A DNA stretch of 47,133 nucleotides from NCBI GenBank assembly GCA_947461635.1, contig CANHMH010000004.1, positions 1 to 47,133 of the forward strand. The letters are read 5' to 3'. Within the stretch, counting starts at the first letter, position 1. Each line of letters opens with the position of its first letter. Below, in pieces: positions 3,384-31,234 of this stretch. This stretch comes from Flavobacteriales bacterium (GTDB taxonomy: Bacteria > Bacteroidota > Bacteroidia > Flavobacteriales_D > Crocinitomicaceae). Both the position numbers and the translations under genes were made by a program. Below the pieces are notes generated by a model. The model worked only from the letters and a program-made list of their open reading frames with translations. It was not told where the DNA came from and made no database searches.

Positions 3384-3868
3384 ATACAGAAATTCCGTGA
3401 GATTATGGACTCAATATTCGGTCAGTGAATCAATTCATTTGAACTGCGTATTCAAAAAAAATGTACCAGACTACTCTGGTAGCCGAGTTTTAATCGAAAT
3501 GAATAAGACCAACTAACATAACTCAAAAAATGTAACATATTATCTTCAGTTATTCATTGTATAACTATGGGTAACAAATTCGCATTGTGCAAGCAACTAG
3601 TTTTTTGGTTAACTCATTCGACTTAGATAGTTCTAGAGTCTTTCCGACACAGCATGTTATCAAAAATTCCGATTCTCCCTTCGCATCTATTATTAATTAA
3701 TTGTAACTTTTTTTCACTCGTAACAATTTTTTGCAATTATATTTTATATTTGTGTAAGAACCTGAATATGAATGTAAAGACAAACGCTTTCTTACAATAA
3801 TTCTAAATGAAGAGGCCTCCCTATTCATTGTAGTTTTTTAAGGGTCAAATATCGAGACCTCCGCGTTT
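3384..3868. other. Gene-free stretch between sprF operon and pqqD cassette
   Basis: I find no convincing coding frame on either strand. The stretch is AT-rich and carries one promoter-like box near its right end (3745-3752). Two tiny frames follow that box (MNVKTNAFLQ from 3769; MKRPPYSL from about 3808) but nothing supports their translation. Confidence 0.5.
3745..3752 (+). promoter_or_regulatory. Candidate -7 box for the pqqD cassette
   Basis: TATATTTG matches the Bacteroidota -7 consensus TAnnTTTG. No well-spaced -33 TTG is obvious. If used, transcription would start near 3758 and give a leader of roughly 345 nt that includes the sprF remnant. Confidence 0.4.
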
Positions 3869-4015
3869 AACCAAGCACGATTTATTTTTAAACAGCACCA
3901 ACGTATAACATCACTACATGAGTATGTTTTGAGCATCCCATCAAAGAAGGTTCAGAAATCACGAACATCAATAAATCGAATAACATCACTTACGTAGTTT
4001 ACTACCGCCATAACG
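3869..4015 (+). pseudogene. Decayed 147-bp fragment of the sprF-like gene
   Basis: This stretch aligns without gaps to 3011-3157 inside the upstream sprF-like gene (constant offset 858 bp). By eye about 128 of 147 bases match; the last 77 bases differ at only two positions. In the inherited frame it reads PSTIYF, stop, TAPTYNITT, stop, then 'FEHPIKEGSEITNINKSNN', so it cannot encode a working protein. It lies in the leader region of the pqqD cassette. It may be the scar of a duplicated or deleted gene. Confidence 0.85.
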
Positions 4016-4064
4016 TAAGAACAATCCAAATAAAAAATAACTCCACTTTAAGATAACTCAAAAG

Positions 4065-4106
4065 ATGAACAAGCTTTCAGAAAAAAGCAATAAATTTATA
4101 CTATGA
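4065..4106 (+). CDS. Possible 13-codon leader peptide overlapping pqqD
   Basis: ATG at 4065 opens a short frame (MNKLSEKSNKFIL) whose TGA stop overlaps the ATG of the next gene as ATGA. The same 4-nt overlap links the next two genes, so translational coupling is possible. The frame is short enough to be chance. Confidence 0.25.
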   Translation: MNKLSEKSNKFIL

Positions 4107-4390
4107 ATGAACTCATCAAATCCATTTCTGAAAAAAAACCTCAATTTATCTGTAGAGACACTGGTGAGGAAATGATCCTAATTCGCCTGGAAAATAACGT
4201 CGCCGATTTCAATCAATACCTTACATTAAACGAAGTCGGTGCTTTTATTTGGGAGAATCTGAATGAGGGTGACGATGAATCCTCACTTACCGCAAAGATT
4301 TGTGCCGAATTTGAAGCGAATGAAACGGAGGTACTTCTTGATTTACAAGCTTTTTTAGAAAAACTTCGAAGCTATTTAGAAATAAAATGA
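4103..4390 (+). CDS. PqqD family peptide-chaperone-like protein
   Basis: 95 residues with the PqqD/RRE layout: an N-terminal beta hairpin (MILIRLENNVADFNQYLTL), then 'LNEVGAFIWENL', the hallmark LN-x-x-G-x-x-hW/h segment, and two helices including 'ICAEFEANETEVLLDLQAFLEKL'. PqqD-like proteins bind the leader of a ribosomally made peptide and present it to a modifying enzyme; stand-alone versions also accompany HPr-kinase-like proteins in cassettes of unknown purpose. The stop overlaps the next start (ATGA), so it is the first of a three-gene operon. No radical SAM, lasso cyclase or B2 protease is encoded nearby. A candidate substrate peptide lies at 6457-6633. Confidence 0.85.
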   Translation: MNELIKSISEKKPQFICRDTGEEMILIRLENNVADFNQYLTLNEVGAFIWENLNEGDDESSLTAKICAEFEANETEVLLDLQAFLEKLRSYLEIK

Positions 4391-5283
4391 TGTCAGAAGC
4401 TACGATTCACTTAAAAATTGCAGATTTCATCTTTCAATTGTTTGTGCCGAATAATGTTCTTTTTAGCTTGGATTGCGGTTTTGAAGGATATGTGACAGAG
4501 GGGAGAGCAGAAATCGGAGATGGAGAGCCCGTGGATCTAACAATTTACTGTCATGTTGGATGTTCGAATGCACCAAAAATATGGGGGGGAGAAATATACA
4601 GTGCTAAAAATGATGGTATTGCTTTGTGGAAAATTTTCAAAACCCATGAGGGTATCTGCATTCATGTTAATGATTCAGAGGAAATATCCCGTTTGCAACA
4701 CATCGCATTTTATCAAGAGGAAAAACAAGAATGGAACATTTATTCCGACTTGAACGAAAGTCAAACTTTGGAATCCTTACGCTACCCCATGTTGCCAATC
4801 ATTCTTTATTATTTAACGACTCAAACTTCATCTCTTTTGGTGCACGCATCTGGAGTATTTGATGGAAAGCACGGAAGACTTTTCTCAGGATTCAGTGGCG
4901 TGGGAAAAAGCACCATGGCTGGTCTTTGGCAAGACTCAGGCGCAAAAATCATCAACGACGATCGACTTATGTTACGTAAAATTGATGGACGTTGGTGGAT
5001 GTTTAATACACCCATGTATTATTCCGATTCTCCGAAAAAAGCTCCATTGGATTTTATTTATTTGCCCTTTCATCAGGTTAAAAATACCTATGAACGAAGT
5101 AATGGCCTTGAAATGAGCATGCGTTTTATGGCACATTGTATTCAGCATGGTTATAATTCTATTCATGTTCAAAGGCATCTAGATAACGTATTAAATCTTT
5201 CCAAAGAAATGCCAATTGCACGTTTAGGCGTTGTTCCAAACATGGATGTTTTGACTTTTATCAAGGATCATGAACAAGCGTGA
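4387..5283 (+). CDS. HPr-kinase-like P-loop protein (HprK-related)
   Basis: 298 residues. A P-loop, GFSGVGKST, lies at about residues 168-176, preceded by 'LVHASGVFDGKHGRLFSG' and followed by an acidic pair in 'IINDDRLML'. This order matches the C-terminal domain of HPr serine kinase and its relatives that accompany PqqD-like proteins. The N-terminal half has no recognisable domain. It begins at ATG ATG overlapping the pqqD-like stop and overlaps the nucleotidyltransferase gene by 14 nt, so the three are co-translated. The natural phosphate acceptor is unknown; no HPr (ptsH) gene is seen here, which argues against ordinary carbon catabolite control. Confidence 0.78.
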   Translation: MMSEATIHLKIADFIFQLFVPNNVLFSLDCGFEGYVTEGRAEIGDGEPVDLTIYCHVGCSNAPKIWGGEIYSAKNDGIALWKIFKTHEGICIHVNDSEEISRLQHIAFYQEEKQEWNIYSDLNESQTLESLRYPMLPIILYYLTTQTSSLLVHASGVFDGKHGRLFSGFSGVGKSTMAGLWQDSGAKIINDDRLMLRKIDGRWWMFNTPMYYSDSPKKAPLDFIYLPFHQVKNTYERSNGLEMSMRFMAHCIQHGYNSIHVQRHLDNVLNLSKEMPIARLGVVPNMDVLTFIKDHEQA

Positions 5284-6370
5284 GGATTTTGTAAATGATT
5301 TAAGTTTAGAGGCCCATTTTTTGGTCAACATTCTTCGCGCACATGTGCATCAGCAAGCGATGCCGGTGATTCCGAATGATATAAATTGGCGAACATTTTT
5401 AACATTATGTTATGCTACACATTATGCAGGGATTTGCCTGGACTTATTCAAATCATACGATTCAACTGAAATTCCAGCGGACGTTTTTCTTCAGTTAAAA
5501 TCCTATCAACTACGTGTGTTGACTTCCAATGAACGTTTATTGATTCAATATAAAACATTGGAACAAATTGCCAATGAAGAACAGTTGCTCCTTTATCCAT
5601 TAAAAGGAATTACTTTGATGCCTCATTTTTACGATAGAAATTATCACCGACACATTTCAGACATCGATGTATTGATTGACGGCAATCAACTTTCCCAATG
5701 GGAACAAGTTTTAACAAAGAACAACTTTCGTATTAAGAGAAGGTATGCCAAGTCACGTTTTCATGAACAACACAACCTGAAATATGATCCTTTGCAAGCG
5801 TTTAAACAAAATACTGTTGTGGACTTTCACGTTTCATTGAATTCCGGGTTTCATCACATTGATATACCGATTGAATCATTACATAGGAATCGCAATCATT
5901 CACATGAACTAAATCAAGTTGATCAATTGATTTTTGTATGCATGCACGCATACAAGCACTTGTATTATGGACAAATAAATTTACTTCACTTGATGGATAT
6001 TTTCTTAGTAAAAAAAGGGGTGTCTTCAACTATGCTATTGGAACGTTGCGCGCATTTTAATTGTCAGAGAGAAGTGGAACAAGCCCTAAACATCGCGCTT
6101 TTTTTCTTTGGAGATAACAAAAAGAACATTCCTTCTTGGCAAAGGGCTATTTTGGGAAAAGAACTACAATCAAATAAACTTTCTAGAAGTACAAAGTGCT
6201 TATTTTCCTATCGAAAACACCTTCAAATTCCTGTTTCCTGGCACTTAATCCCCTCCTATTTATGGTTTCAGGTTTTTCCGAGTGCAGCTTATTTACGTCA
6301 AAGTGATGGGTATTCAATGTATGCATTAAATTGGCTGCGAAGAATTCTTCGTTTAACAATGAATCGCTAA
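5270..6370 (+). CDS. Nucleotidyltransferase family protein (PF14907 type)
   Basis: 366 residues. The motif 'LYPLKGITLMPHFY' followed by 'HISDIDVLID' places a Dx D metal-binding pair at D131/D133, as in the uncharacterised nucleotidyltransferase family PF14907. A third acidic residue could be the Asp of 'VVDFHVSL' near residue 185. The C-terminal half is helical and histidine-rich ('MHAYKHLYYGQINLLHLMDIFLV'), also usual for the family. Proteins of this kind recur with PqqD-like and HPr-kinase-like partners and may transfer a nucleotide to a protein, peptide or small molecule, but no substrate is established. It is the last gene of the three-gene operon; no terminator is apparent after it. Confidence 0.82.
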   Translation: MNKREDFVNDLSLEAHFLVNILRAHVHQQAMPVIPNDINWRTFLTLCYATHYAGICLDLFKSYDSTEIPADVFLQLKSYQLRVLTSNERLLIQYKTLEQIANEEQLLLYPLKGITLMPHFYDRNYHRHISDIDVLIDGNQLSQWEQVLTKNNFRIKRRYAKSRFHEQHNLKYDPLQAFKQNTVVDFHVSLNSGFHHIDIPIESLHRNRNHSHELNQVDQLIFVCMHAYKHLYYGQINLLHLMDIFLVKKGVSSTMLLERCAHFNCQREVEQALNIALFFFGDNKKNIPSWQRAILGKELQSNKLSRSTKCLFSYRKHLQIPVSWHLIPSYLWFQVFPSAAYLRQSDGYSMYALNWLRRILRLTMNR

Positions 6371-6456: not shown

Positions 6457-6633
6457 CTATTTAAAAAACTTAAATGGATTAAATACAAGACTATTTTGTC
6501 CCGGATTTGCTGGAACAGGATCTTGAGATGTTGTGAAATACGTAAATTCTGTATCAATTTGAATTTTCTCCACCACTGGAGTTTCGTATTTCTTACGACT
6601 TCCAGTCTCTTTTTTGTTTGCTTGGGTATGCAT
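6457..6633 (-). CDS. 58-aa peptide, candidate precursor for the PqqD cassette
   Basis: Missed by length filters. The frame runs from an ATG at 6633 to a TAG at 6457; an in-frame TGA lies five codons upstream of that ATG. The N-terminal part is basic (KKETGSRKK), then comes 'YETPVVEKIQIDTEFT' (residues 16-31), then a Pro/Asn-rich tail 'SQDPVPANPGQ' ending in 'NPFKFFK'. Y16-x-x-P19 followed by alternating hydrophobics resembles the Y-x-x-P leader motif that RRE/PqqD proteins recognise in lasso precursors, and small Bacteroidota peptides of unknown function ending in NPF-like tails are familiar to me. It lies convergent to the nucleotidyltransferase gene and 76 nt downstream of a T9SS gene on the same strand. 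The coding call rests on composition and context only. Confidence 0.6.
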   Translation of the reverse strand: MHTQANKKETGSRKKYETPVVEKIQIDTEFTYFTTSQDPVPANPGQNSLVFNPFKFFK

Positions 6634-6709: not shown

Positions 6710-9112
6710 TTAGTGTAATAATACTACTTTTTTCTTTAAAATTACTTTTCCATAATTTACTTCGACAAAATAAATTCCAAATTGTTCACCTAAATGTATC
6801 GATTCTTCTTGATTATTAAATAATAGATGCTCAACGATACGTCCACTCGCATCGTGCACTTTTATTGAACCTTCTGGTTTGAATCCTTCTTCCAATCGAA
6901 TTGTAAGCAAACCTTCATTATCACTAATGATTTGAATATTTTCAGTTGTTAATTCATCTGTCCCAAGGATTTCCAAGTCAGCAGGACCACCACCAAGTAC
7001 CGGAGCATTCGCCAATTGAAAATGAATCACAAAACGAGATGAATTAATTCCGGCATTCCCAAAGAATGAATAAACCGGATTAATCGTTAAATCTTGAAGC
7101 ACGCCTTCTTGTTTGTCTTCCAATAATATGAGTCCATCTTCGATATTCATTTCTTCCGCTTGGAATATGTAGCTTTTACTTAATGGTAAATCTAATGTTA
7201 AGGGCACAGATGTCTTCGCTTTTACATTTTTCATTCCATTGATGACTAATTTCTTCGCATTCACGGTGGAATAAAATTGTGCAGAGCCCGTTGCCATCAT
7301 TTTTTCTGAATCATGTTCATCTAACGATGTACTGGCATCAGGTGACATAAATAAGATGACTTGGTCTTTGCTTTCGCCATCCAACATATTGAATCTTAAA
7401 AATGCTGGAAAATCTTGTGCTGAACTGCGAAGTCCAGCCCCATTAGATTGATGACTTCTCATGCTATTGTCCAACGCCAAAGATCCGGTTTGACCATCAG
7501 CTATCACTTTTACCCAAAATCCTTGCATCGGAGCAATGTATTTTGTCATAGGTGTCCCTGAAATACTTGTCCCTATTTGGTCAAATGAATTGTACGTTTC
7601 TAATACATTGAAATTACTCCCAAGTGCCGTTCTTACATACATTGTTGTTGATACATTTGTTTTACCAACCATATCCCAGTCCAAATAACTTGGATACGGG
7701 TTACTCACTAAATGACAACCTCTAAACTGTGCCGTTGTACCCGTGCGGGTCAAGTTTAAAAGACCCAATGCTCCATTTGAAATTCCAGAGCCAGAGAAGT
7801 TGATTGTTTCAGATGTCTGGCCGCTGCGCAATACATATGATTTCCCCTGCGCCAAAGCTTGTCCAGATGCCATTAATGAATAGTTCGCATTGGTCTCATC
7901 CCATTGCCATAATTGGTTTCCTGTAGATGACAATAAAGCGGTACTCGATCCATTTGACAATGGACTTCCTAAATACCAGAATCGTCCGTTTGGTGTTGCG
8001 CCACCTGTACCGGTGATGGTTTGTTTGACGTTGTATGTTCCAGTACCAGAATTTGATCCAGAACCTGTTTGAACTAAAGTTGCACCATTTTCTATGGTTA
8101 GAGTGCCATTGTTAACGATGTTACCCGTTAGAGTAAGCTGAATGTTTGGATCAACAATAACAGTACCTCCTGAATTGATGGTGAGGTTAGTTAAAGATTG
8201 ATTCGATGAAATTCTCAAAATCGCGTTTGTATTAATTGTTGTTAATCCAGTATACGTACAGCCTGAATTGTAAATTACGGAAGAACCTGTATTTCCACCA
8301 ATAAAAACAGCATTTGACACACTTGTTGAAATACTATTTGCAGTAAGTCCATCGCTTATGGAACCAGGTGTTAAATTACCACCTGCAGCTAGCGCATAAC
8401 CTAATTCAACCGTCGTTGTGGATGAAACAGAACAGGACTTCCAAAAAGCATTATCATTAGAGTTTCCATCCCACATATCAGAACCATAAATTGAAAATGA
8501 GGTGATTGGATTTGCGTTTAATAAAGTAAAGTTTTTAACGTCACTATGGAAGCCACCGTTTACAAACAAAGAAGCAGTAATTATAGTAGGGCTAAGAATT
8601 TTTACTTTGAATGTATAATCTCTGAAAATATCCTGAGAAGGACTGTAGTTAAACGATGCAGCGGAAGAGCCATTTGAGATATACCAGGAGCCAAAATTAT
8701 CAGTATTTATGCGCAATTTAGAACCACTAATATTATTCGCGTAGCTTCCACCTTGAGTTCCTGTAGCATTTAACGAAAAACCTATTTGACCAAACGCACG
8801 TGTGCAGTTTACAGTAATTGAAAATTCATCTCCAATTTGCAGAGACCTCATGGCAGTGCCAGAGTTATCACTGGTCGTTTTAAGATCCCTCCAAGCTACC
8901 GTTTGTTTAGCATTTGTATTTGCCCACATTCCTAGTTCTACTGAACCATTATTAAAAAAACCTCCTCCACTATTAAATTGAGTGGGGAAAAACCCATTTT
9001 GCATGGTTATTCCCAAACTCGATGCTTGTCCAAATAAGTTTCCGAGACAAAAAATAAAAACAAAACATAATTTAGCGCTTCGCGGAAGTAACTTGTTCAA
9101 TTTCATAGTCAT
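6710..9112 (-). CDS. T9SS type-A sorted surface protein, paralogue 1
   Basis: 800 residues with a Sec signal peptide (hydrophobic 'LCFVFIFCLGNLFGQ'). Residues to ~330 form a beta-rich Ser/Thr/Asn/Gly region unlike its neighbour's; residues ~332-698 match the paralogue at 9537-12329 almost residue for residue. The block starts in 'NNGTLTIENGATLVQTGSG' and contains 'GRFWYLGSPLSNG', 'CHLVSNPYPSYLDWD' and 'APMQGFWVKV', seen in many Bacteroidota secreted proteins. The last ~75 residues ('IKVHDASGRIVEHLLF ... GIYFVEVNYG ... KKKVVLLH') form a type-A T9SS sorting domain, so the mature protein should be at the cell surface or released. Ligand or activity is unknown; an adhesin-like role is an inference. 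Confidence 0.85.
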   Translation of the reverse strand: MTMKLNKLLPRSAKLCFVFIFCLGNLFGQASSLGITMQNGFFPTQFNSGGGFFNNGSVELGMWANTNAKQTVAWRDLKTTSDNSGTAMRSLQIGDEFSITVNCTRAFGQIGFSLNATGTQGGSYANNISGSKLRINTDNFGSWYISNGSSAASFNYSPSQDIFRDYTFKVKILSPTIITASLFVNGGFHSDVKNFTLLNANPITSFSIYGSDMWDGNSNDNAFWKSCSVSSTTTVELGYALAAGGNLTPGSISDGLTANSISTSVSNAVFIGGNTGSSVIYNSGCTYTGLTTINTNAILRISSNQSLTNLTINSGGTVIVDPNIQLTLTGNIVNNGTLTIENGATLVQTGSGSNSGTGTYNVKQTITGTGGATPNGRFWYLGSPLSNGSSTALLSSTGNQLWQWDETNANYSLMASGQALAQGKSYVLRSGQTSETINFSGSGISNGALGLLNLTRTGTTAQFRGCHLVSNPYPSYLDWDMVGKTNVSTTMYVRTALGSNFNVLETYNSFDQIGTSISGTPMTKYIAPMQGFWVKVIADGQTGSLALDNSMRSHQSNGAGLRSSAQDFPAFLRFNMLDGESKDQVILFMSPDASTSLDEHDSEKMMATGSAQFYSTVNAKKLVINGMKNVKAKTSVPLTLDLPLSKSYIFQAEEMNIEDGLILLEDKQEGVLQDLTINPVYSFFGNAGINSSRFVIHFQLANAPVLGGGPADLEILGTDELTTENIQIISDNEGLLTIRLEEGFKPEGSIKVHDASGRIVEHLLFNNQEESIHLGEQFGIYFVEVNYGKVILKKKVVLLH

Positions 9113-9536: not shown

Positions 9537-12329
9537 TTAAGGTTGAACAAAGATTTTTTGAAGTTCAATATTTTGATAAGTAGATACTCGAACATAATAG
9601 ATACCAGAACAATTATCTAGGTTGATGATTGTTTCTTTTTCAATTAATTTCTTTTTTAGTATGGTACGTCCACTTGCGTCGATCACTTCTAGATGTGCAT
9701 CTTTCATTTCTGCGATGGGAAAATTGACACTGATTTGCCCTTTACCATTTGAAAGAACATTAATGTGTGAAGATTGAGAACTAAAATCCGTAATATTCGC
9801 AGATAGCTCATTGGTTTCAAAATCATTCGTTACGAATTCTGCAGAACGTAAGTGAAAATGAATCACAAAACGAGTCGTGTTGATTCCGACATTGCCAAAG
9901 AATGAGTAAATAGGGTTAATCGTTAAATCTTGCATCACTCCTTCTTGCTTATCTTCCAATAAAATGAGTCCATCTTCTATATTAAATTCTTCCGCTTGGA
10001 AGGTATAGCTTTTGCTTGACGGTAAATCTAATGTCAAAGGAATAGATGTCTTCGCTTTTACATTTTTCATTCCATTGATGACTAATTTCTTTGCATCAAC
10101 AATTGAATAAATTTGAGCGGATCCCGTTACAGGTAATTTTTCAGAGTCATGTTCATCCAATGCTGATGTTGCGTCGGGTGACATAAATAAAATAACTTGA
10201 TCTTTATTCTCACCATCCAATACATTCATTCTTAAGAAAGCTGGAAAATTTTGTGCTGAACTGCGAAGTCCTGCTCCATTCGCCTGATGACTTCTCATGT
10301 CATTATCCATTGCTAGGGAACCAGTTTGACCATCAGCTGTTACTTTTACCCAAAATCCTTGCATCGGAGCAATATCTTTTGTCATGGGTGTCCCTGAAAT
10401 ACTTGTCCCTATTTGGTCAAATGAATTGTACGTTTCTAATACATTGAAATTACTCCCAAGTGCCGTTCTAACGTACATTGTTGTTGATACGTTTGTTTTG
10501 CCAACCAAGTCCCAGTCCAAATAACTTGGATACGGATTACTAACCAAATGACAACCTCTCATTTGTGCTGAAGTTCCGGTACGGGTTAAATTTAAAACGT
10601 TTAGTGTTCCATTAGACAAACCGGTTCCTGAGAAATTGATTGTTTCTGCTGTTTGTCCACTTCTAAGTACATACGATTTTCCTTGCGTCAACGATTGACC
10701 TGAAGACAAGGTCGCATAATTCGCATTGGTCTCATCCCATTGCCACAATTGGTTTCCTGTAGATGACAATAAAGCGGTACTCGATCCATTTGACAATGGA
10801 CTTCCTAAATACCAAAATCGTCCGTTTGGTGTTACGCCACCGGTACCGGTGATGGTTTGTTTGACGTTGTATATTCCATTACCAGAATTTGACCCTGATC
10901 CAGTTTGAACTAACGTTGCACCGTTTTCGATGGTAACTGTTCCGTTATTTGTAAGCACACCGCTGATCGAAAGTTTTGCTCCAGATTGAAGCGTGAGGGT
11001 TTTTCCTGAATTTATGGTTATCGAAGTGATTTCAGGTGAATTCGTACACGTAGCTGAATTAGGAATAGTAATATCGATTGAACCGTCCGGAATTCCAGTT
11101 GGATTCCAATTAGAAGAAGTTGACCAGTTAGTGGATGTTGTGCCGGTCCAAGTATAAATACTTGGAATAGTTGCTGTCACTGTATTTGAAGCCGCGCCAC
11201 TACCAACGGAATTTATCGCTTTCAATTGAACACTGTATGATGTTCCCGCGCTTAAATTAGAAATTACTAAAGGAGAACTTGTCACAGCGGGATTTGGAGT
11301 AATCCAGGTTAAACCATTGTCTGTGGAATAGATGTAATTCGTAATACTTACACCTCCATTTGACGTTGGAGCGTTAAAATCGACTGATAGCTGCGTGTTA
11401 TTGGGTGTAATTCCTGTGATTGTGGGAGATGAAGGAGCCGAAACACCAATATTCAATGGAATTGAATTATAAACGATAGCATCATCAACAAAAATATTAG
11501 CTGAGTTTAAAGTACTACTTATACCGATAAATGTACCCGAATTTATAGAAGTATTTGCCGGTAATTGGGCTTCTGATAAATCATTTCCAATTATTGTCCC
11601 ATTAACATATAGGTCAAATTTTTGAACACCAACAGAATTTGCAATCCCATTGTAAGAATAATTAATTGTACCAGTTGATTTATTATTTCCAATAATTTCG
11701 ATTTTATAAACTACACCAGAACTAAAAGTCGAAGTTGTTAATGAAGTTGTTGAATTTGTACTTCCTGATCTATATGTTAATCCTATTGAACCACCTGCAC
11801 CATAAGTAAAATTTAATCCAGTAAAAACTTGTGAACCTGTAAAATCACTCGCATCAGAATACATTGCTCCCGTACCCATATAAAATTTCCACACTCCTGA
11901 GTTGGCACCTGCGCCTCCAGATGCATCACCGAATAAAACTTTAAAAGATGTATAAAATTCAGTTCCACTTGTATACCCTACCCATGGTGAGAATTTTGTT
12001 ACACTTGCGGATGTAGAAGCAGATGCTCTAACAAAAGAGCCTGTAGTTCCAAGTGGATTAGACGAATTTAACAAAGAAATTGAAGCTGAAACACCCGCCC
12101 TAGCCCATGTAGCACCGGATGTTGGTGTTGGAATAAATGATGTTGATCCAGTAGAACTAGTATGCGAAGAAACACTTGATCCAAAATTTTGACTGGCAAC
12201 CTGCCCCATCAAATTTCCTCCAATTAACGTGAACATTATGATGCTCCTAATTCTAGTAAGAGTCATTGCTTTTGGAGTATGAATTAAATGAAATTGAACT
12301 GATTTCTGTTCGATTTGGTGAGTTTTCAT
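9537..12329 (-). CDS. T9SS type-A sorted surface protein, paralogue 2, with fibronectin type III domain
   Basis: 930 residues from the ATG at 12329. A TTG at 12374 would lengthen it by 15; an ATG at 12266 gives the cleanest signal peptide (MTLTRIRSIIMFTLIGG) and may be the true start. The N-terminal ~280 residues look like a beta-sandwich of LamG/carbohydrate-binding type but are not identified. A fibronectin type III domain follows at about residues 298-390 ('SPTITGITPNNTQLSVDF ... LSAGTSYSVQLKAINSVG'). Residues ~459-825 are the block shared with the paralogue at 6710-9112. The C-terminus ('LEVIDASGRTILKKKL ... GIYYVRVS') is a type-A T9SS sorting domain. Probably surface-displayed; partner unknown. 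Confidence 0.85.
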   Translation of the reverse strand: MKTHQIEQKSVQFHLIHTPKAMTLTRIRSIIMFTLIGGNLMGQVASQNFGSSVSSHTSSTGSTSFIPTPTSGATWARAGVSASISLLNSSNPLGTTGSFVRASASTSASVTKFSPWVGYTSGTEFYTSFKVLFGDASGGAGANSGVWKFYMGTGAMYSDASDFTGSQVFTGLNFTYGAGGSIGLTYRSGSTNSTTSLTTSTFSSGVVYKIEIIGNNKSTGTINYSYNGIANSVGVQKFDLYVNGTIIGNDLSEAQLPANTSINSGTFIGISSTLNSANIFVDDAIVYNSIPLNIGVSAPSSPTITGITPNNTQLSVDFNAPTSNGGVSITNYIYSTDNGLTWITPNPAVTSSPLVISNLSAGTSYSVQLKAINSVGSGAASNTVTATIPSIYTWTGTTSTNWSTSSNWNPTGIPDGSIDITIPNSATCTNSPEITSITINSGKTLTLQSGAKLSISGVLTNNGTVTIENGATLVQTGSGSNSGNGIYNVKQTITGTGGVTPNGRFWYLGSPLSNGSSTALLSSTGNQLWQWDETNANYATLSSGQSLTQGKSYVLRSGQTAETINFSGTGLSNGTLNVLNLTRTGTSAQMRGCHLVSNPYPSYLDWDLVGKTNVSTTMYVRTALGSNFNVLETYNSFDQIGTSISGTPMTKDIAPMQGFWVKVTADGQTGSLAMDNDMRSHQANGAGLRSSAQNFPAFLRMNVLDGENKDQVILFMSPDATSALDEHDSEKLPVTGSAQIYSIVDAKKLVINGMKNVKAKTSIPLTLDLPSSKSYTFQAEEFNIEDGLILLEDKQEGVMQDLTINPIYSFFGNVGINTTRFVIHFHLRSAEFVTNDFETNELSANITDFSSQSSHINVLSNGKGQISVNFPIAEMKDAHLEVIDASGRTILKKKLIEKETIINLDNCSGIYYVRVSTYQNIELQKIFVQP

Positions 12330-12546
12330 GGTGATGAAGTTGTCTATAAAGAGAGACTGTTTTATCCACCTCAAATTTCTCCTTTATAAATTGCTTGCCT
12401 ATTACGTTTGTATTATGATATTACCAAATTAATGGCCTCAAAAATGATGGCATTGTTAAGTCAATTGAGAAGAATCAAAAAGTTTGATTAGGCAATACTT
12501 CTTGAAATAATGAGAATTTTGAAAAAAAGGATATGCTTTCGCAAAT

Positions 12547-13011
12547 TTAAAAACGTGATTTACCTCTTAATTTCGATTCAAAATGTTTCCATAACCAGAA
12601 TGGCAAAGAATAAAACCTTCCAAATAATAACACTGTGCGTGAAAGAATAGATGTTGGTGATAGTTTTATCCATTTATTTCCGTGGTAAATCATGGATACC
12701 TTTGCCAAATAAGTATCCTTTCCAACTGGTTCATCTGGATTTAGGTTAGAATCCCCTTTGGTAATTAGATGAACCATTTCATTCTCTCGAAGAATGTGAT
12801 GAACTCGGTGAATCACCAAATAATCTTGTTTTTGAAATGCCACCAAATCACCTTTTACAATCAAAGAAATGTCGACTGGAGTCAATTTTACTTTTTGTCC
12901 TGGACGCAAAAATGGAATCATACTTTGACCAAAGGCACTTAATTCTACAGAATGACCTTCCATTAATAAGGACTTTACTGTTTCACTTAAGTATTGCTTC
13001 GTTTCTTGCAT
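12547..13011 (-). CDS. S24/S26 family signal-peptidase-like protein
   Basis: 154 residues. 'FGQSMIPFLRPGQKVKL' supplies the nucleophile S30, and 'DLVAFQKQDYLVIHRVHHI' supplies H68 in an HRV context, as in SipW/ER-type signal peptidases that use a Ser-His pair rather than Ser-Lys. A short hydrophobic stretch ('FYSLPFWLWKHF') near the C-terminus could anchor it weakly; there is no N-terminal membrane segment as in LepB. Similar small peptidases are recurring companions of PqqD-like/HPr-kinase-like/nucleotidyltransferase cassettes, and this one lies upstream of the two T9SS genes on the same strand. It might mature the small peptide at 6457-6633; that is inference. Confidence 0.8.
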   Translation of the reverse strand: MQETKQYLSETVKSLLMEGHSVELSAFGQSMIPFLRPGQKVKLTPVDISLIVKGDLVAFQKQDYLVIHRVHHILRENEMVHLITKGDSNLNPDEPVGKDTYLAKVSMIYHGNKWIKLSPTSILSRTVLLFGRFYSLPFWLWKHFESKLRGKSRF

Positions 13012-13036
13012 TTTAATATTCTCCTTCGTTCAAGTT

Positions 13037-13978
13037 TCAGCGAAGATGGATCCCACCCGTGTGAATTATAATCACTTTCTTTCCTGCAAAAATAGGATTC
13101 CCTAAAGAAATTTCATTGTTTAATGCAAAAAACACTTTCCCAGTATAAATTGGTTCGATTTGAAAATCATTCATACAGTGAAATTCATCTATAAAAGACA
13201 TGAGTTCTTGACTTATTTTTGCATAACCACCATGGTGTTGATTATCCCAGATGATGAGTTTAGAACAAAGAGAATCGAATAAAACATCGTCATTGAGTAA
13301 TTGCCGCATTTCGTTTAAAACTTCGAATCCTTTCAACACAGGAACAACAATCAATTTCGCGTTTTCGGGAATCGACAATAGTAAACCAAGGCTTGTCGTG
13401 CATGTTCCTTGGGCCACAAGATAATAATCAAAGTCTTGATCTAATTCCGAGACGATTTCGGCACACCCTTGAATGCCTAGTAGGTTTGCTCCGCCCTCGG
13501 GAATAGACCAATATAAGGCTCCATCTATCTCAACTATTCCACTTTGGTGTTTCTGCTCTGTAAATTGAGAACGAGTTAAGAATTCCAATTTCATTCCCAT
13601 TTCATAACATTGCTGTAAAATGGGATTCGAATGAACTGTCAACTCCTCTCCCCTTACCTTTCCATATACCTCGATCCCTAGTTCTTTTCCTGCTGCCGCA
13701 CTTGCAATTAAGTGATTCGAATAAGCGCCACCATAGGTGATAATCCCCTGGCAATTGTTCGCAAGCGCTTCATGAATATTGAACTTTAACTTACGAATTT
13801 TATTGCCTGAAATGAACGGATGAATTAAATCGTCACGTTTCACGAACATTTGAACTCCAACTGTGTTACATGGTAAGTTTACGGATTGCACGACACTCTT
13901 TTGAGTCAATTCAGTAAACCAACTATCTAATTTAGAAACAAATGAGTTTGGATTTTTCTGGTTTTTCAAAAAGGTCAA
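13037..13978 (-). CDS. PLP-dependent ACC deaminase / D-cysteine desulfhydrase family enzyme
   Basis: About 313 residues. 'FVKRDDLIHPFISGNKIRKLKF' contains the PLP lysine (K60), 'TYGGAYSNHL' follows, and the C-terminus 'VIIIHTGGIHLR' is the phosphate/HTGG signature of 1-aminocyclopropane-1-carboxylate deaminase/D-cysteine desulfhydrase relatives. The substrate cannot be decided. No ATG exists at the 5' end: the frame opens with TTG at 13978 (or TTG at 13969), and the first ATG, at residue 44, would delete part of the N-terminal fold. The 5' end overlaps the divergent DUF5522 gene by 37 nt with the TTG start; a small sequencing error or a TTG start are both possible. Confidence 0.83.
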   Translation of the reverse strand: MTFLKNQKNPNSFVSKLDSWFTELTQKSVVQSVNLPCNTVGVQMFVKRDDLIHPFISGNKIRKLKFNIHEALANNCQGIITYGGAYSNHLIASAAAGKELGIEVYGKVRGEELTVHSNPILQQCYEMGMKLEFLTRSQFTEQKHQSGIVEIDGALYWSIPEGGANLLGIQGCAEIVSELDQDFDYYLVAQGTCTTSLGLLLSIPENAKLIVVPVLKGFEVLNEMRQLLNDDVLFDSLCSKLIIWDNQHHGGYAKISQELMSFIDEFHCMNDFQIEPIYTGKVFFALNNEISLGNPIFAGKKVIIIHTGGIHLR

Positions 13979-26466: not shown

Positions 26467-27369
26467 ATGCATTTAATTTCTATTGTAATTTGCACTTATA
26501 ACAGATCATTTTACTTACCAAAATGCTTTGACCATTTACTAGCCCAAAATGCTTCGCCAGATTCTTTCGAAATCATAATCATTAATAATAATTCAACTGA
26601 TAACACAGAAGAAATTTCCAAAAAATTCATTGAAAACAACCCAGAGTACAATATTACATACGCAGTTGAGAAAAAAAGTGGATTATCCAATGCGAGAAAT
26701 AAAGGAATTGAGATTTCATCTGGTGAATTAATCGCGTTCATTGATGATGATGGATTTGCTCGAAACAACTATGTGGCAGAACTATTAACTATTTTAAATC
26801 AACATTTACATCAGGATTACATCGCATTTGGAGGGAAAGTTGAACCAATTTATTCTTCGGAAAAAAAACCAATTTGGCTTTCCAAATATATTGAAGGTGT
26901 AGTTTCAAGAGTTGATTTGGGAGATGAGATTAAACCATTCGATAAAAAATATCCTGCTGGATGCAACATGGTTTTTAGAAAAGAATTTTTTGAAAATTAT
27001 GGCGGATTTAACGTTGATTTACATACAAGAGGTGATGATAAATTTGTTTTCGATAATTTAAAAAAAAATAAACTTAAAATTTTATACCTCCCGAATTTGT
27101 ATGTAGAACATTTTATTGATGATTACCGACTAGAAAAGACTTTCATAATTAAGTTGTCAAAAATAATTGGACAAAGTGAACAAATCAGATTAAAAAAATA
27201 TAATACAACAATAAGAATCAAGAAGTTTTTGGAATATGTTTTTAAATTATTTGCAGCATTTGTGATCGCTTTATATTTCATTTTTAAATTGCAGTATAAA
27301 AAAGCTCAATATCTTATTTTAGTGAGGTGGAATGTATTGAAAGGTTTTTTTATCAAATCTAAAATTTAA
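26467..27369 (+). CDS. Family 2 glycosyltransferase
   Basis: 300 residues with the GT-A fold: 'ISIVICTYNRSFYLPKCFDHLL', 'IIINNNSTDNT', 'GLSNARNKGIEISSGELIAFIDDDG' (D-D-D metal site about residue 93). After 'GGFNVDLHTRGDDKFVFDNLKK' (acceptor/catalytic region) a hydrophobic helix ('FAAFVIALYFIFKLQ') near residues 257-272 suggests membrane attachment. It is the first gene of the plus-strand glycan operon. The sugar cannot be predicted. Confidence 0.88.
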   Translation: MHLISIVICTYNRSFYLPKCFDHLLAQNASPDSFEIIIINNNSTDNTEEISKKFIENNPEYNITYAVEKKSGLSNARNKGIEISSGELIAFIDDDGFARNNYVAELLTILNQHLHQDYIAFGGKVEPIYSSEKKPIWLSKYIEGVVSRVDLGDEIKPFDKKYPAGCNMVFRKEFFENYGGFNVDLHTRGDDKFVFDNLKKNKLKILYLPNLYVEHFIDDYRLEKTFIIKLSKIIGQSEQIRLKKYNTTIRIKKFLEYVFKLFAAFVIALYFIFKLQYKKAQYLILVRWNVLKGFFIKSKI

Positions 27370-27380
27370 TTCATTGCTAG

Positions 27381-27521
27381 ATGGGTATATTTATCAATAA
27401 GTTTAGAAGCAACACTTCTCATTTAGTAAATATTAAATTTTACAGGCTCATAAATGATTCAAATCTTATAAAGAATCACAATTTGAATCAAATGGACTTG
27501 CAATTAAATATCTTCGAATAA
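27381..27521 (+). CDS. Possible 46-aa small protein
   Basis: ATG at 27381 to TAA at 27521 fills the gap between the GT2 gene (11 nt away) and the next gene (4 nt away). The product (MGIFINKFRSNTSHLVNIKF..., ending QMDLQLNIFE) is Asn-rich and resembles nothing I know. The perfect fit between neighbours argues for a gene; the AT-rich composition makes chance possible. Confidence 0.35.
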   Translation: MGIFINKFRSNTSHLVNIKFYRLINDSNLIKNHNLNQMDLQLNIFE

Positions 27522-27525
27522 AAAA

Positions 27526-28389
27526 ATGAAACAACTAATTAATAATTTTTTTCTCACAGGAATTTCGATTGTAAAAATTTTTTTACAATCGAAATGGTTT
27601 AATACCATAAAACTTAAAAGCACAAAAAAATCCTGCATTATTATTGGAAACGGCCCTTCATTTAACAGTAGTATCATTGAAAATAAAAAAACAATTCAGG
27701 AGCATGAACTCATTTGTGTAAACAACTTTGCAATAACTGACTTTTATGATGATTTAAAACCAAAATATTATTTACTTCAGGCACCGATTTTGTTTCAATC
27801 AAATGAGAATAGTTCACCCCTTTACATTAACATGAGAGATGTACTGTTTAATCATATTGAGGTAAAAACAAAATGGGAATTAAATTTAATGGTTCCATTC
27901 AGAGCTAAAAAATCAAAGGAATTTTTGAACTTACTGAAACAAAACAAATTCATTAAAGCACATTTTTTTAATGATATAGCTATTGAGGGTTTTGATTCTT
28001 TTATTTACACCTGTTATCGATTAAAATTAGGAATGCCGAGACCTCACAACGTATTAATACCTACAATAATGAATGCAATTAGTATCGGTTTTAAAGAAAT
28101 CAATATCATAGGTGCTGATCACTCTTGGTTAGGTGAAATTTCCGTGAATAATAGCAATGAAGCTTTGGTTAATCAGAAACATTTTTATGACGAATCAGTA
28201 TCTAAACCTGAAAAAATGCAAGATTACATAAGTAGACCAAGAAAACTACATGAGATCATTCATAAATTTTATTTAACCTTTCAAGGTTATTGGATTATTG
28301 AAAAATATTCTAAAAGAAATCAAACAACAATTTATAATGCAAGTCAAATATCAATGATAGATGCATTTGAGCGTAGATTATTAAAATAA
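27526..28389 (+). CDS. Putative glycosyltransferase resembling GT42 / DUF115-type proteins
   Basis: 287 residues. 'CIIIGNGPSFNSSI' then 'ICVNNFAITDFYDDLKPKYYLLQAP' recall the GNGPS...N opening of Campylobacter-type sialyltransferases (GT42) and MptE/DUF115-like proteins. 'IMNAISIGFKEINIIGADHSWLG' and 'NQKHFYDES' fit the same fold, in which a GT42 His motif acts as base. No membrane segment except a weak N-terminal hydrophobic stretch. It sits between a GT2 gene and pseB, so transfer of pseudaminic acid to a glycan or protein is a reasonable guess, but this is not a confident family assignment. Confidence 0.55.
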   Translation: MKQLINNFFLTGISIVKIFLQSKWFNTIKLKSTKKSCIIIGNGPSFNSSIIENKKTIQEHELICVNNFAITDFYDDLKPKYYLLQAPILFQSNENSSPLYINMRDVLFNHIEVKTKWELNLMVPFRAKKSKEFLNLLKQNKFIKAHFFNDIAIEGFDSFIYTCYRLKLGMPRPHNVLIPTIMNAISIGFKEINIIGADHSWLGEISVNNSNEALVNQKHFYDESVSKPEKMQDYISRPRKLHEIIHKFYLTFQGYWIIEKYSKRNQTTIYNASQISMIDAFERRLLK

Positions 28390-28395
28390 ACAAAA

Positions 28396-29406
28396 GTGAA
28401 AGATAAATCAATTTTAATTACAGGTGGAACAGGATCATTAGGTAAAGCCTTAACCAACCATATTTTAACAAATTTCCCTGAAATTAAGCGACTTGTCATT
28501 TTTTCAAGAGATGAACAAAAGCAATTTGAAATGGAACAAGACTTTCCTCATCGTATATATCCACAAATTAGGTATTTTATTGGGGATGTTCGTGATCAAG
28601 AACGGCTTGAAAGGGCTTTCACAGACATTGATTATGTAATCCATGCAGCGGCTATGAAGCACGTTCATATTGCAGAATATAATCCGGACGAATGCGTAAA
28701 AACAAATGTCGGCGGAGCTGAAAATGTCATAAAAGCAGCTTTGAAATCTAGTGTACAACACGTCGTGGCACTTTCTACAGACAAAGCGTGTGCTCCTATT
28801 AATCTTTACGGAGCAACCAAATTAACATCAGATAAACTTTTTGTTGCTGCAAATAATATTCGCGGTAAGCAAAAAATTAAATTTTCGGTCGTTCGTTATG
28901 GAAATGTAATGGGTTCAAATGGTTCGGTCATACCATTTTTTCTGAAGAGAAAAAAAACAGATGGTATTTTACCAATAACCGTTGAATCAATGACTCGTTT
29001 TAACATATCCCTTCAAGGAGGTGTTGATATGGTCATGCATGCCCTTGAAACAGCATGGGGTGGTGAAATCTTCGTTCCTAAAATTCCTTCATACCGTATT
29101 TTAGATGTTGCGGAAGCAATAGGGCCGGAATGTGAAAAACCAGTTATTGGTATTCGTCCAGGTGAAAAAATCCATGAGGAAATGATCACATCATCAGACT
29201 CCTTTTTCACCTATGATTTAGGGAAATATTATGCAATTCTGCCTCAAACCACTTCTTGGGATGTGCAAGCATTTATTGAGGAATTCAATGCGAAAAAAGT
29301 TCCGGAAGGATTTTCATACAATTCTTATAACAACGAAGAGTGGGAATCTATTGAGAGCTTAAGAGAATTAATTAAAGAACACGTTGATCCGACATTCGAA
29401 TTATGA
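28396..29406 (+). CDS. pseB: UDP-N-acetylglucosamine 4,6-dehydratase (inverting)
   Basis: 336 residues from a GTG start, 6 nt after the preceding stop. First step of pseudaminic acid synthesis: UDP-GlcNAc to the 4-keto-6-deoxy-L-arabino sugar. NADP Rossmann motif 'GGTGSLGKAL', 'YVIHAAAMKHVHIAEYNP', and the catalytic string 'STDKACAPINLYGATK' with Asp-Lys-Tyr as in FlaA1/PseB. C-terminal 'IRPGEKIHEEM' is also typical. Overlaps pseC by 4 nt (ATGA). Confidence 0.95.
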   Translation: MKDKSILITGGTGSLGKALTNHILTNFPEIKRLVIFSRDEQKQFEMEQDFPHRIYPQIRYFIGDVRDQERLERAFTDIDYVIHAAAMKHVHIAEYNPDECVKTNVGGAENVIKAALKSSVQHVVALSTDKACAPINLYGATKLTSDKLFVAANNIRGKQKIKFSVVRYGNVMGSNGSVIPFFLKRKKTDGILPITVESMTRFNISLQGGVDMVMHALETAWGGEIFVPKIPSYRILDVAEAIGPECEKPVIGIRPGEKIHEEMITSSDSFFTYDLGKYYAILPQTTSWDVQAFIEEFNAKKVPEGFSYNSYNNEEWESIESLRELIKEHVDPTFEL

Positions 29407-30593
29407 AAGCAATTCCATACGGAAGACAGGAAATTACCGAAGGTGACATTTTAGCTGTAACAGAAGCACTTCAGTCAGATTTTTTAACCCAAGGCCCTCG
29501 TATTTTAACATTTGAACAAGAATTTGCTAACTATGTTGACGCAAAATACGCCGTTGCCGTTAGTAATGGGACAGCTGCCCTACATTTATCTGTATTAGCA
29601 CTCGGTATTGAAAAGGATGAATACGTTATCTGTACCCCGATCACTTTTGCAGCATCCGTAAATTGTGTCCAGTATTGTGGTGGGAATGTTCTTTTCGCTG
29701 ATATTGACCCTGTCACATATTTAATGGATATTGAATCTGTAAATAAGGTTATCAAATCAAATAAGGATAAAAAAATTGTCGGAATCATTCCTGTAGATTT
29801 TGCGGGCAGAGTTCCTCAATTGGATGAATTTCGAGCGTTAGCAGATGAACATGACCTTTGGATTCTTGAAGATGCTTGTCATGCACCAGGTGGATCTTTT
29901 TTATCTCTTTCCAAACATAAACACAAGGCAGGCTGTGGCAATTTTGCCGATTTAGCTATTTTTTCTTTTCATCCAGTAAAACACATTGCGACAGGTGAAG
30001 GAGGAATGATCACAACAAACAATGAGCAACTCTATCGTCAATTATTGGAATTGCGCACGCACGGAATCACCCGTGATGCAGCCAAATTTGAAAACAGTAT
30101 AGAATTCGCAAATGGAAATAGCACAAAGGAATCTTCTGATTTTCCAATGTGGTATATGGAAATGCAAAATTTGGGTTACAACTATCGTTTGACAGATTTT
30201 CAAGCTGCATTAGGAAGTTCGCAATTACTAAGGGCAGATGAAAATTTGAAACGTAGGATTCAAATTGCTGAAAGATATACAAATGAACTCGCTAATTGTA
30301 AGGGAATTATTCAGTCTTCAGGAACAATAGAAGGACATGCCTATCATTTATATGTTTTAGAAGTTGAGGACCGAAGAGGATTATATGATTATTTAAGATC
30401 CGAACAAATTTTCGCGCAAATCCATTACATACCTGTTCATTTAATGCCTTTTTACAAGAATCAAGGATGGAAAGAAGGGGATTTACCTAACGCAGAAACG
30501 TATTATTCGCGTTGTATCAGTATTCCGATGTTTCCTTCTATGAGCGATGAAGAGCAATCCTTAGTAATAACTAAAATTCTAAACTATTATTAA
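29403..30593 (+). CDS. pseC: UDP-4-amino-4,6-dideoxy-N-acetyl-beta-L-altrosamine transaminase
   Basis: 396 residues, PLP aminotransferase of the DegT/DnrJ/EryC1 family. Second step of the pathway. Opening 'IPYGRQEITEGDILAVTEAL', 'VSNGTAALHL', 'ILEDACHAPGG' and the PLP lysine context 'FSFHPVKHIATGEGGMITT' match PseC. 'MQNLGYNYRLTDFQAALG' is another family signature. Overlaps pseB by 4 nt; the methylase follows 2 nt after its stop. Confidence 0.95.
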   Translation: MKAIPYGRQEITEGDILAVTEALQSDFLTQGPRILTFEQEFANYVDAKYAVAVSNGTAALHLSVLALGIEKDEYVICTPITFAASVNCVQYCGGNVLFADIDPVTYLMDIESVNKVIKSNKDKKIVGIIPVDFAGRVPQLDEFRALADEHDLWILEDACHAPGGSFLSLSKHKHKAGCGNFADLAIFSFHPVKHIATGEGGMITTNNEQLYRQLLELRTHGITRDAAKFENSIEFANGNSTKESSDFPMWYMEMQNLGYNYRLTDFQAALGSSQLLRADENLKRRIQIAERYTNELANCKGIIQSSGTIEGHAYHLYVLEVEDRRGLYDYLRSEQIFAQIHYIPVHLMPFYKNQGWKEGDLPNAETYYSRCISIPMFPSMSDEEQSLVITKILNYY

Positions 30594-30595
30594 TT

Positions 30596-31228
30596 ATGTC
30601 TGGAACTTATAAAACTGAACAAGAAGCTTTTTGGGCTGGTACGTTTGGAAATGAATATATTGAGCGAAATAAAAGCGACGAATTATTGGCATCGAACCTT
30701 AATTTTTTCAGTAAAGCATTAGCTAAATCGCAACCAATTTCAGAATTTATTGAATTCGGTTCAAACATTGGAATGAATTTGAAAGCACTGTCTTTACTTT
30801 TTCCTGGTAAAAAATTCAGTGGAATCGAAATCAACGAACTTGCTGCAAAAGAATTAGCAAATGTAATTGGTCAAGAAAACGTTTATAATTGCAGTATTTT
30901 TGACTTTTCACCAACCAAAACTTACGACTTAGCCTTTATTAAAGGTGTATTAATTCACATTAATCCAGAACAATTAGATTTGGTCTATCAAAAATTGTAT
31001 ACATCTTCTAAAAAATATATACTAATTGCTGAGTACTACAACCCTTCTCCGGTAATGATTCCTTACAGAGGAAATGAAGACAGATTGTTCAAACGAGATT
31101 TTGCTGGAGAGATGTTGAATAAATACTCGGATTTATCGTTGGTTGATTATGGATTTTCATATCGAAAAGATCCAATTTTCCCTCAAGATGACATCACTTG
31201 GTTTCTACTTGAGAAAATGAATGATTAA
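30596..31228 (+). CDS. Pseudaminic acid biosynthesis-associated methylase
   Basis: 210 residues. 'TEQEAFWAGTFGNEYIERN' followed by 'FIEFGSNIGMNLKAL' (SAM loop) is characteristic of the methylase family that travels with pse genes. It has been described by genome context (TIGR03587 type) without an established acceptor; O- or N-methylation of the nonulosonic acid or an intermediate is likely. Embedded between pseC and pseF with gaps of 2 and 6 nt. Confidence 0.88.
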   Translation: MSGTYKTEQEAFWAGTFGNEYIERNKSDELLASNLNFFSKALAKSQPISEFIEFGSNIGMNLKALSLLFPGKKFSGIEINELAAKELANVIGQENVYNCSIFDFSPTKTYDLAFIKGVLIHINPEQLDLVYQKLYTSSKKYILIAEYYNPSPVMIPYRGNEDRLFKRDFAGEMLNKYSDLSLVDYGFSYRKDPIFPQDDITWFLLEKMND

Positions 31229-31234
31229 TATTTT

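Follow-up and report, generated by a model that had tools for sequence, protein, structure and literature searches.

Linear polyphosphorylated peptides (LPP) are a RiPP family of Bacillota that was published in May 2026 (Popov et al., Nat Commun; PMC13381572). In Paenibacillus alginolyticus, the LPP leader is cut after T-1, 15 residues past the leader Tyr, and the Ser at core position 3 takes several phosphates. The LPP peptidase requires the RRE and processes unphosphorylated precursor poorly, and deletion of the NTP transferase caused no detectable change (PMC13381572). In LppB, N33 holds the leader Pro, D70 holds the leader Tyr, and F74 divides the pockets; the triad of LppS is S29/H68/D93 (PMC13381572). 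According to the discussion of that paper, LPP are restricted to Bacillota, although the network of peptidases is described as “predominantly” Bacillota; the string “Bacteroid” does not occur in it (PMC13381572). The other close systems are of the paeninodin type (PadeK, ThcoK, PsmK/PsmN), in which an HprK-like kinase with a His-Lys-Asp-Asp motif phosphorylates a Ser of the precursor; paeninodin itself bears a C-terminal phospho-Ser (PMC9266682). We found no Bacteroidota version of LPP in the open-access literature, as far as its accessible text goes, which is no proof of absence. In its available text, a study mining Bacteroidales for RiPPs describes C39-exporter clusters, does not contain “nucleotidyl”, and mentions as kinase a histidine kinase (PMC10352776). 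The terms kinase, HprK and Bacteroid are absent from the available text of PMC12710340 and PMC7470986.

The window analyzed here is the whole stretch of DNA presented above, 47,133 nt in length. It contains a 58-aa ORF beside genes for a PqqD-family protein, an HprK-like kinase, and a nucleotidyltransferase. We consider it probable that this peptide is processed into a Bacteroidota RiPP in the manner of the LPP of Bacillota, as their precursor is. This explanation builds on sequence evidence for a real gene, for its membership in a family with fixed motif spacing, for its linkage to enzymes with intact active-site residues, and for its pairing with a surface protein.

A conserved peptide gene convergent with the cassette

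The ORF of the predicted precursor peptide occupies positions 6457..6633 on the minus strand, so that it and the plus-strand cassette converge. Its stop and the end of the nucleotidyltransferase gene (6370) are separated by 86 nt, and its start side is 76 nt downstream of the stop of the gene for an 800-aa protein (6710-9112, minus strand). The initial annotation had placed it about 90 nt beyond the 3' end of the operon, in agreement with the measured distance, and the length, the sequence, and the segment of residues 16-31, YETPVVEKIQIDTEFT, are all as it had written them. It was silent on the opposite strand of the ORF, on the S26 gene at 12547-13011, and on the pairing with a T9SS-sorted protein. 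The key residues of the window peptide are Y16, P19, D27, T31 and S36, and it is the only member of its family in the 47-kb window. Comparison with Pfam and NCBIfam gave no family above cut-off, and the peptide profile, when compared with solved structures, matched at best with E 0.59 and did not recover the LPP leader chains.

Orthologues of the peptide in the genus show 93% and 78% identity, and more distant copies were found as well. When seven copies were compared pairwise, 20 of the 21 pairs gave a dN/dS of 0.03-0.36, and saturation of dS left the last one without an estimate. In four comparisons with the window peptide, random placement of an equal number of substitutions gave 0 cases in 2000 with as few amino acid changes. 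The Ka/Ks constraint that the initial annotation had named as a check is thus present and takes the form of purifying selection. Judged from this pattern of substitutions, the 58-aa ORF is a real gene.

The first profile was seeded with peptides from four families, including the window's own, all obtained through peptide searches, and its target was a set of 15,157 small ORFs from 80 loci collected by the kinase alone (the best 80 of 104 kinase relatives). Its matches reached kinase-selected loci far beyond the families that had supplied the seeds. On 15,157 reversed and 15,157 shuffled small ORFs, the peptide profile gave 0 matches at E<1e-3. Judged by record titles, the loci belong to Flavobacteriales, Bacteroidales (Paludibacter and others), and Chlorobiota, and the peptide family is spread over several families and at least two classes. 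A chance ORF with a coincidental match to YxxP would be short, with a low-complexity C-terminus and without a Pfam family, as this one is. However, such an ORF would show neither the purifying selection nor the taxonomic breadth of the family, and the shuffled and reversed controls were empty; we rejected it because of the selection and the peptide family, and its probability is negligible.

The spacing of the conserved residues was examined in 70 non-redundant peptides, with the seeds included and none dropped. The leader Tyr is present in 70/70, the Pro at +3 in 69/70, and the Asp at +11 in 70/70. Position +15 is Ser or Thr in 64/70, and position +20 is Ser in 66/70, with three Thr and one Glu in the others. 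The predicted core that follows varies widely in length, from 5 to 52 residues. The sole peptide in which YxxP has lost its Pro belongs to G011, a genome where no kinase was detected, which is suggestive, but only suggestive, of a tie between the loss of this Pro and the missing kinase. Four tandem minimal peptides lie directly upstream of PqqD at positions 12809-13269 of locus L093 (also locus L085; G225:C5). One of these copies ends exactly at the conserved Ser, two end 1-2 residues past it, and the fourth has a Thr. That they stop at or near this residue supports the view that a minimal substrate would end there and be modified at this position. Two short ORFs of related type, YLRPTITQITIELEHSLAASS... 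and YIPPTITCVIVQIENSLANSS..., were observed in a further locus (L202; G283:C4), possibly a sister family; the kinase relative of that genome is weaker (E 2.6e-18).

The cassette enzymes retain their active-site residues

The gene at 4103..4390 (plus strand) encodes a PqqD-family discrete RRE, predicted to bind the leader (Pfam PF05402, E 4.7e-15, 56.1 bits vs 23.4). In the window protein and 38 of 68 relatives, N43 and D80 are invariant (39/39) and F84 is conserved in at least 90%. In the alignment to 9x8z_B, with the offset counted by hand, N43, D80 and F84 correspond to LppB N33, D70 and F74. The PqqD profile matched TbiB1 at 7e-11, PbaB1 at 3.7e-9, and LppB at 1.3e-7, so that by E-value the PqqD of the window is nearer to the lasso protein TbiB1 than to LppB.

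The second gene, at 4387..5283 (plus strand), encodes a predicted peptide kinase of the HprK/PEPCK fold, assigned from a fold model and from invariant active-site residues. Residues H153, K174, D191 and D192 are invariant in 51/51 sequences (the window's and 50 of 79 full-length relatives). The sequence scored below the curated cut-offs of the Pfam HPr-kinase and PEPCK families. The model, with a mean pLDDT of 94.7, matched PEPCK with Z up to 15.0 over 244 aligned residues (rmsd 4.8); HPr kinase was not among the best 50 matches listed in that comparison. In Foldseek, the model matched HPr kinase 1knx_A at E 8.3e-6, with a low TM-score of 0.29. The order His-Lys-Asp-Asp fits the motif of the lasso-tailoring kinases as given in the available text, mapped by residue order and not by alignment to PadeK.

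The third gene, at 5270..6370 (plus strand), encodes a nucleotidyltransferase of the NTP_transf_5 family (PF14907, E 5.4e-28), in which K112, G113, D131 and D133 are invariant in 23/23 sequences (the window's and 22 of 32 relatives). The best structural match of its model was ANT(2'')-Ia at E 1.7e-3, and none reached E 0.001.

A predicted leader peptidase, S26 archaeal-type and signal-peptidase-like, is encoded at 12547..13011 (minus strand), outside the PqqD operon and 6 kb further on. It matches TIGR02228 with 56.3 bits (cut-off 51.85), and this copy gave no match in Pfam. Across the window protein and 73 other S26 proteins, the triad residues S30 (73/73), H68 (74/74) and D93 (74/74) are conserved. 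A crude pattern scan of the window revealed no exporter. In both Bacteroidales S26 proteins that were scanned (L122:10851-13097 and L135:10830-13055), an S24/S26-type peptidase domain and an ABC exporter form one fusion protein, analogous to the C39 peptidase-containing exporters. Two other loci (L151 and L162) have the arrangement PqqD, kinase, S26, stand-alone exporter, nucleotidyltransferase; in NCBIfam this exporter matches MsbA best, with a score below the cut-off. With their active-site residues intact, the cassette enzymes look competent. Of a RiPP system, in which the RRE of a cluster recognizes the leader of an encoded precursor and the enzymes of the cluster modify it, the genes for a predicted precursor, an RRE, an enzyme, and a peptidase are present and linked.

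Linkage of the peptide to the cassette and co-occurrence with the kinase

After one profile iteration, 50 peptide copies were found in 39 of the 80 kinase loci. Leaving out the seven loci on contigs of seed peptides (L087, L088, L090, L093, L109, L114 and L118), the peptide is present in 32/73. Of the 39 loci, 30 have it no more than 2.5 kb from the kinase; it stands directly before PqqD on the same strand in 15 loci, and faces the nucleotidyltransferase, as in the window, in nine. The remaining 41 of the 80 loci yielded no peptide in the profile search of small ORFs, several of them being cut by contig ends; where the contig extends 5 kb or more in both directions from the kinase, 15/34 loci were without it. 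A search of these 41 loci for divergent short YxxP ORFs gave nothing convincing. Four of the 24 most distant kinases have the peptide in their loci vs 35 of the 56 nearer ones.

We also compared the occurrence of kinase and peptide by genome, with E-value limits that were picked after the tables were seen and with p values that assume independent genomes; counting by genus was done for the class sample only. In the class sample of 296 genomes, the kinase (E<1e-40) was found in eight, the peptide (E<1e-6) in 10, and both in seven (hypergeometric p 2.6e-11). Counted by genus, each occurs in four of 165 and all four are shared (p 3e-8). In the phylum sample of 296 genomes, three have the peptide, and exactly these three have a kinase at E<1e-60 (p 2e-5 without the window's own genome); five more genomes have weaker kinase relatives and no peptide. 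Under looser limits, eight genomes were shared in the class sample, of 13 and 13 (p ~1e-9), and two in the phylum sample minus the window's own genome, of two and seven (p ~5e-4). Among 39 genomes of the genus (from a set of 41 searched), 10 have the kinase, two of these being contig-edge fragments, 13 have the peptide, and nine have both (p 3e-5); this count leaves out one peptide match with an internal stop (G006, E 0.0012).

The association has exceptions. The peptide occurs without a detected kinase in four genomes of the genus (G011, G016, G022 and G032) and in two of another genus (G143 and G199); G011 and G022 are 99% complete. One genome has a kinase fragment and no peptide (G272). Peptides lie far from the cassette in four genomes (G068, G172, G366 and G434), and in G366 and G434, which belong to another class, they are on other contigs than the kinase or megabases from it. 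A strict one-to-one dependence of peptide and cassette was therefore rejected, because some genomes with the peptide have no detected kinase and some peptides are far from the cassette. At the folP-CHU-sprF site of G016, G011 and G022 (loci L031, L034 and L067), the peptide and a T9SS partner are present, and PqqD, kinase, and nucleotidyltransferase are not; two of these three peptides have altered C-termini by eye. This is a presence/absence polymorphism of the cassette within one genus.

The initial annotation had proposed a search for homologues with the YxxP segment beside PqqD-type cassettes, and such homologues exist, for example in the 15 loci with the peptide directly before PqqD. Its proposal that the 58-aa peptide may be the substrate of the PqqD/HprK-like/nucleotidyltransferase cassette withstood both conditions that it had named as refuting, and the peptide very probably is this substrate.

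Pairing with a T9SS-sorted surface protein

The 800-aa protein encoded immediately upstream of the peptide (6710..9112, minus strand) is a T9SS-sorted surface or secreted protein with a module at residues 301-730 and a C-terminal sorting domain. We examined the upstream neighbors of the 50 peptide copies, of which six have a contig end upstream and 44 are assessable. A distinct large T9SS-type ORF on the same strand, or a contig-cut piece of one, lies within 130 nt upstream in 33/44. When the C-terminal stretches of these partners and of the window's, each no longer than 115 residues, were compared with Por_Secre_tail, 33 of the 34 matched at E 0.01 or better; the tail of the window partner scores 24.0 bits, below the Pfam cut-off of 27. 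Residues 301-730 of the window partner are common to 31 of the 33 upstream partners (phmmer E 2.1e-22 or better), the other two being contig-cut fragments of 103 aa. This module of ~400 residues has no Pfam name and occurs across Flavobacteriales and Bacteroidales. The remaining 11 copies comprise the four tandem peptides of L093, copies with PqqD, S26 or nucleotidyltransferase upstream, and others.

The window's genome has 74 T9SS tails and G250 has 105, an estimated few percent of genes, and therefore the pairing is far above the base rate. In G366 and G434, six of the eight peptide copies immediately follow the gene of a protein whose C-terminal tail is related (tails identified by eye). 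Peptide-partner pairs may be scattered away from the enzymes. The module also occurs without a peptide, at least in one copy in the window: a second T9SS-sorted protein at 9537..12374 (minus strand), 71% identical to the first over ~490 residues, has no peptide downstream. The partner protein shares its C-terminal sorting domain with T9SS type A cargo (Por_Secre_tail), whereas the peptide itself lacks one. The accessible open-access literature yielded no dedicated small peptide beside a T9SS cargo gene, and the T9SS-sorted partner has no counterpart in the published related systems as far as their available text goes. The peptide would be made together with the upstream T9SS-sorted protein and would most likely act with it or on it at the cell surface.

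These observations bear on whether the peptide is modified at all. It might serve the surface protein unmodified, as a chaperone, an inhibitor or a ligand, with the kinase cassette a frequent neighbor and not its modifier. The pairing with the upstream gene, with its 33 partners within 130 nt and 31 sharing the module, is indeed tighter than the linkage to the cassette, pairs exist far from the cassette, and some genomes have pairs and no detected kinase. However, conservation in the peptide is strongest in a leader of the RRE type and at a Ser whose spacing is fixed, neither the 15 peptides directly before PqqD nor the strong genome co-occurrence with the kinase fits a mere neighbor, and the only peptide of 70 to lack the Pro (G011) is from a genome without a detected kinase. 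We therefore regard an unmodified helper as unlikely and prefer a peptide that is modified by the cassette.

Comparison with lasso peptides

The YxxP leader would suit a lasso precursor whose cyclase and B2 peptidase are encoded elsewhere in the genome. PqqD, HprK and NTP-transferase genes are also described in paeninodin-like lasso clusters, in the available text, and asparagine-synthase-family genes are present on other contigs of the window's genome. Of the statement of the initial annotation that no lasso cyclase or radical SAM enzyme is present, the part on the cyclase holds for the window contig (C4), where PF00733 has no match; the matches of this asparagine-synthase family in the genome are on C7, C54 and C21. 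However, the lasso B2 peptidase (PF13471) has 0 matches in the window's genome (83% complete) and is absent from 12 of the 13 system-bearing genomes searched, the window's own included; the one exception, with its B2 gene on another contig, is G225, the genome of the tandem peptides. In addition, inspection by eye revealed no cyclase next to the cassettes of L077, L084, L085, L108, L115, L128, L132 and L137, S26 replaces B2 as in LPP, and the predicted cores differ greatly in length. A lasso peptide was rejected because B2 is absent from the genome, within its completeness, and a cyclase from the window contig; we consider it highly improbable.

As far as the available descriptions go, the window and the paeninodin-type systems share an HprK-like kinase with His-Lys-Asp-Asp, a companion nucleotidyltransferase, and a PqqD-type B1 protein. 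They differ in that the window has an S26 peptidase instead, with no B2 found in the genome and no cyclase on the contig. The conserved Ser is internal in the Bacteroidota peptides, except for a few copies, unlike in the paeninodin type; the copies of L093 that end at or near this Ser recall the C-terminal phospho-Ser of paeninodin.

Comparison with LPP and proposed mechanism

Both the LPP clusters, as described in the available text, and the window have a discrete RRE, an HprK-like kinase, an SpI/S26 peptidase with a Ser/His/Asp triad, and an NTP transferase; the MsbA-like exporter of LPP clusters may have a counterpart in some Bacteroidota relatives of the window. The precursors of both have a YxxPx[V/I] leader whose predicted last residue (Thr/Ser) is 15 residues past the Tyr, a conserved Ser shortly beyond the leader, and variable cores, with no cyclase needed. 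The differences, on the same text, are as follows. The conserved Ser is at Tyr+20 in the Bacteroidota peptides vs +18 in LPP (+20 in 66/70, +18 in 3/70); the Asp at Tyr+11 is invariant; the precursors are paired with a T9SS-sorted protein and sometimes scattered; and some Bacteroidales have S26 and the ABC exporter in one fusion. The LPP precursor motif YxxPxVLxHQxIxFETxxS is not matched as a whole by the Bacteroidota peptides, in which HQ and FE(T) are absent and the Ser is shifted; the parts that match are YxxPx[IV] and the Thr/Ser at +15. Because this motif is unmatched and the paper, in its available text, restricts LPP to Bacillota, we do not claim membership in the LPP family. By analogy, the system in the window is a Bacteroidota variant of the LPP kind that would work as LPP does.

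Thus, the initial annotation was right in recognizing a real YxxP peptide and a very probable cassette substrate. Its expectation that any product would be of a new kind no longer stands, as the Bacillota LPP with the same enzyme set had already been published (PMC13381572).

Leader binding, phosphorylation, where the leader is cut, export, and what the surface partner does are our inferences. The PqqD protein (RRE) would bind the YxxP leader as an extra beta strand, and the HprK-like kinase would then add one or more phosphates to the conserved Ser at Tyr+20 (S36). The S26 peptidase would cut the leader after the Ser/Thr at Tyr+15 (T31) and release the core YFTTSQDPVPANPGQNSLVFNPFKFFK. The predicted leader thus comprises residues 1-31 (Y16xxP19, D27, E29-F30-T31) and the predicted core residues 32-58, with the putative phospho-acceptor S36 at core position 5. 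The nucleotidyltransferase may add a further group, perhaps onto the phosphate. The product would be exported, in some relatives via the ABC transporter fused to or beside S26, and would be made together with the specific T9SS-sorted surface protein encoded just upstream.

The phosphate might instead go to another protein, such as the T9SS partner or PqqD, with the peptide serving only as guide or scaffold. Such a role would tolerate the variable C-terminal part and the few copies that stop at or just past the conserved Ser, but the HprK-like kinases of LPP and of the paeninodin type, as described in the available texts, act on the precursor's own Ser. We consider a guide or scaffold quite unlikely, and phosphorylation of the peptide itself remains the preferred step.

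More tentatively, a widespread Bacteroidota system may couple a phospho-modified RiPP to the T9SS, with the mature peptide joining, anchoring or licensing its own partner; we hold this to be possible but rather doubtful. Each precursor would then have its own partner and one shared enzyme set would modify all peptides, the mature form of which would be (poly)phosphorylated and possibly sugar-bearing. If this were true, the phosphopeptides would serve surface assembly and would not be a diffusible antibiotic. The proposed explanation as a whole would extend RiPPs of the LPP kind to Bacteroidota. A conserved T9SS-sorted partner is not reported for the Bacillota clusters in the available text, and with such a genetic partner the question of what the phosphopeptides do becomes directly testable. 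The explanation would also provide a hypothesis of function for many short unannotated Bacteroidota ORFs (EISLVMMS- and NPFK-type peptides).

Other features of the window

Directly before pqqD, at positions 3847-4035, part of the upstream sprF/porP gene (aa 225-290) is present a second time, with 83% nucleotide identity over 170 nt. It was not seen in five related loci and is possibly a scar of the arrival of the cassette. Further on, positions 26467-34378 hold a pseudaminic-acid locus (PseB, PseC, PseG/PseH-like and PseI) with a glycosyltransferase that was assigned by eye; the Bacillota LPP clusters are likewise described near capsule loci (PMC13381572).
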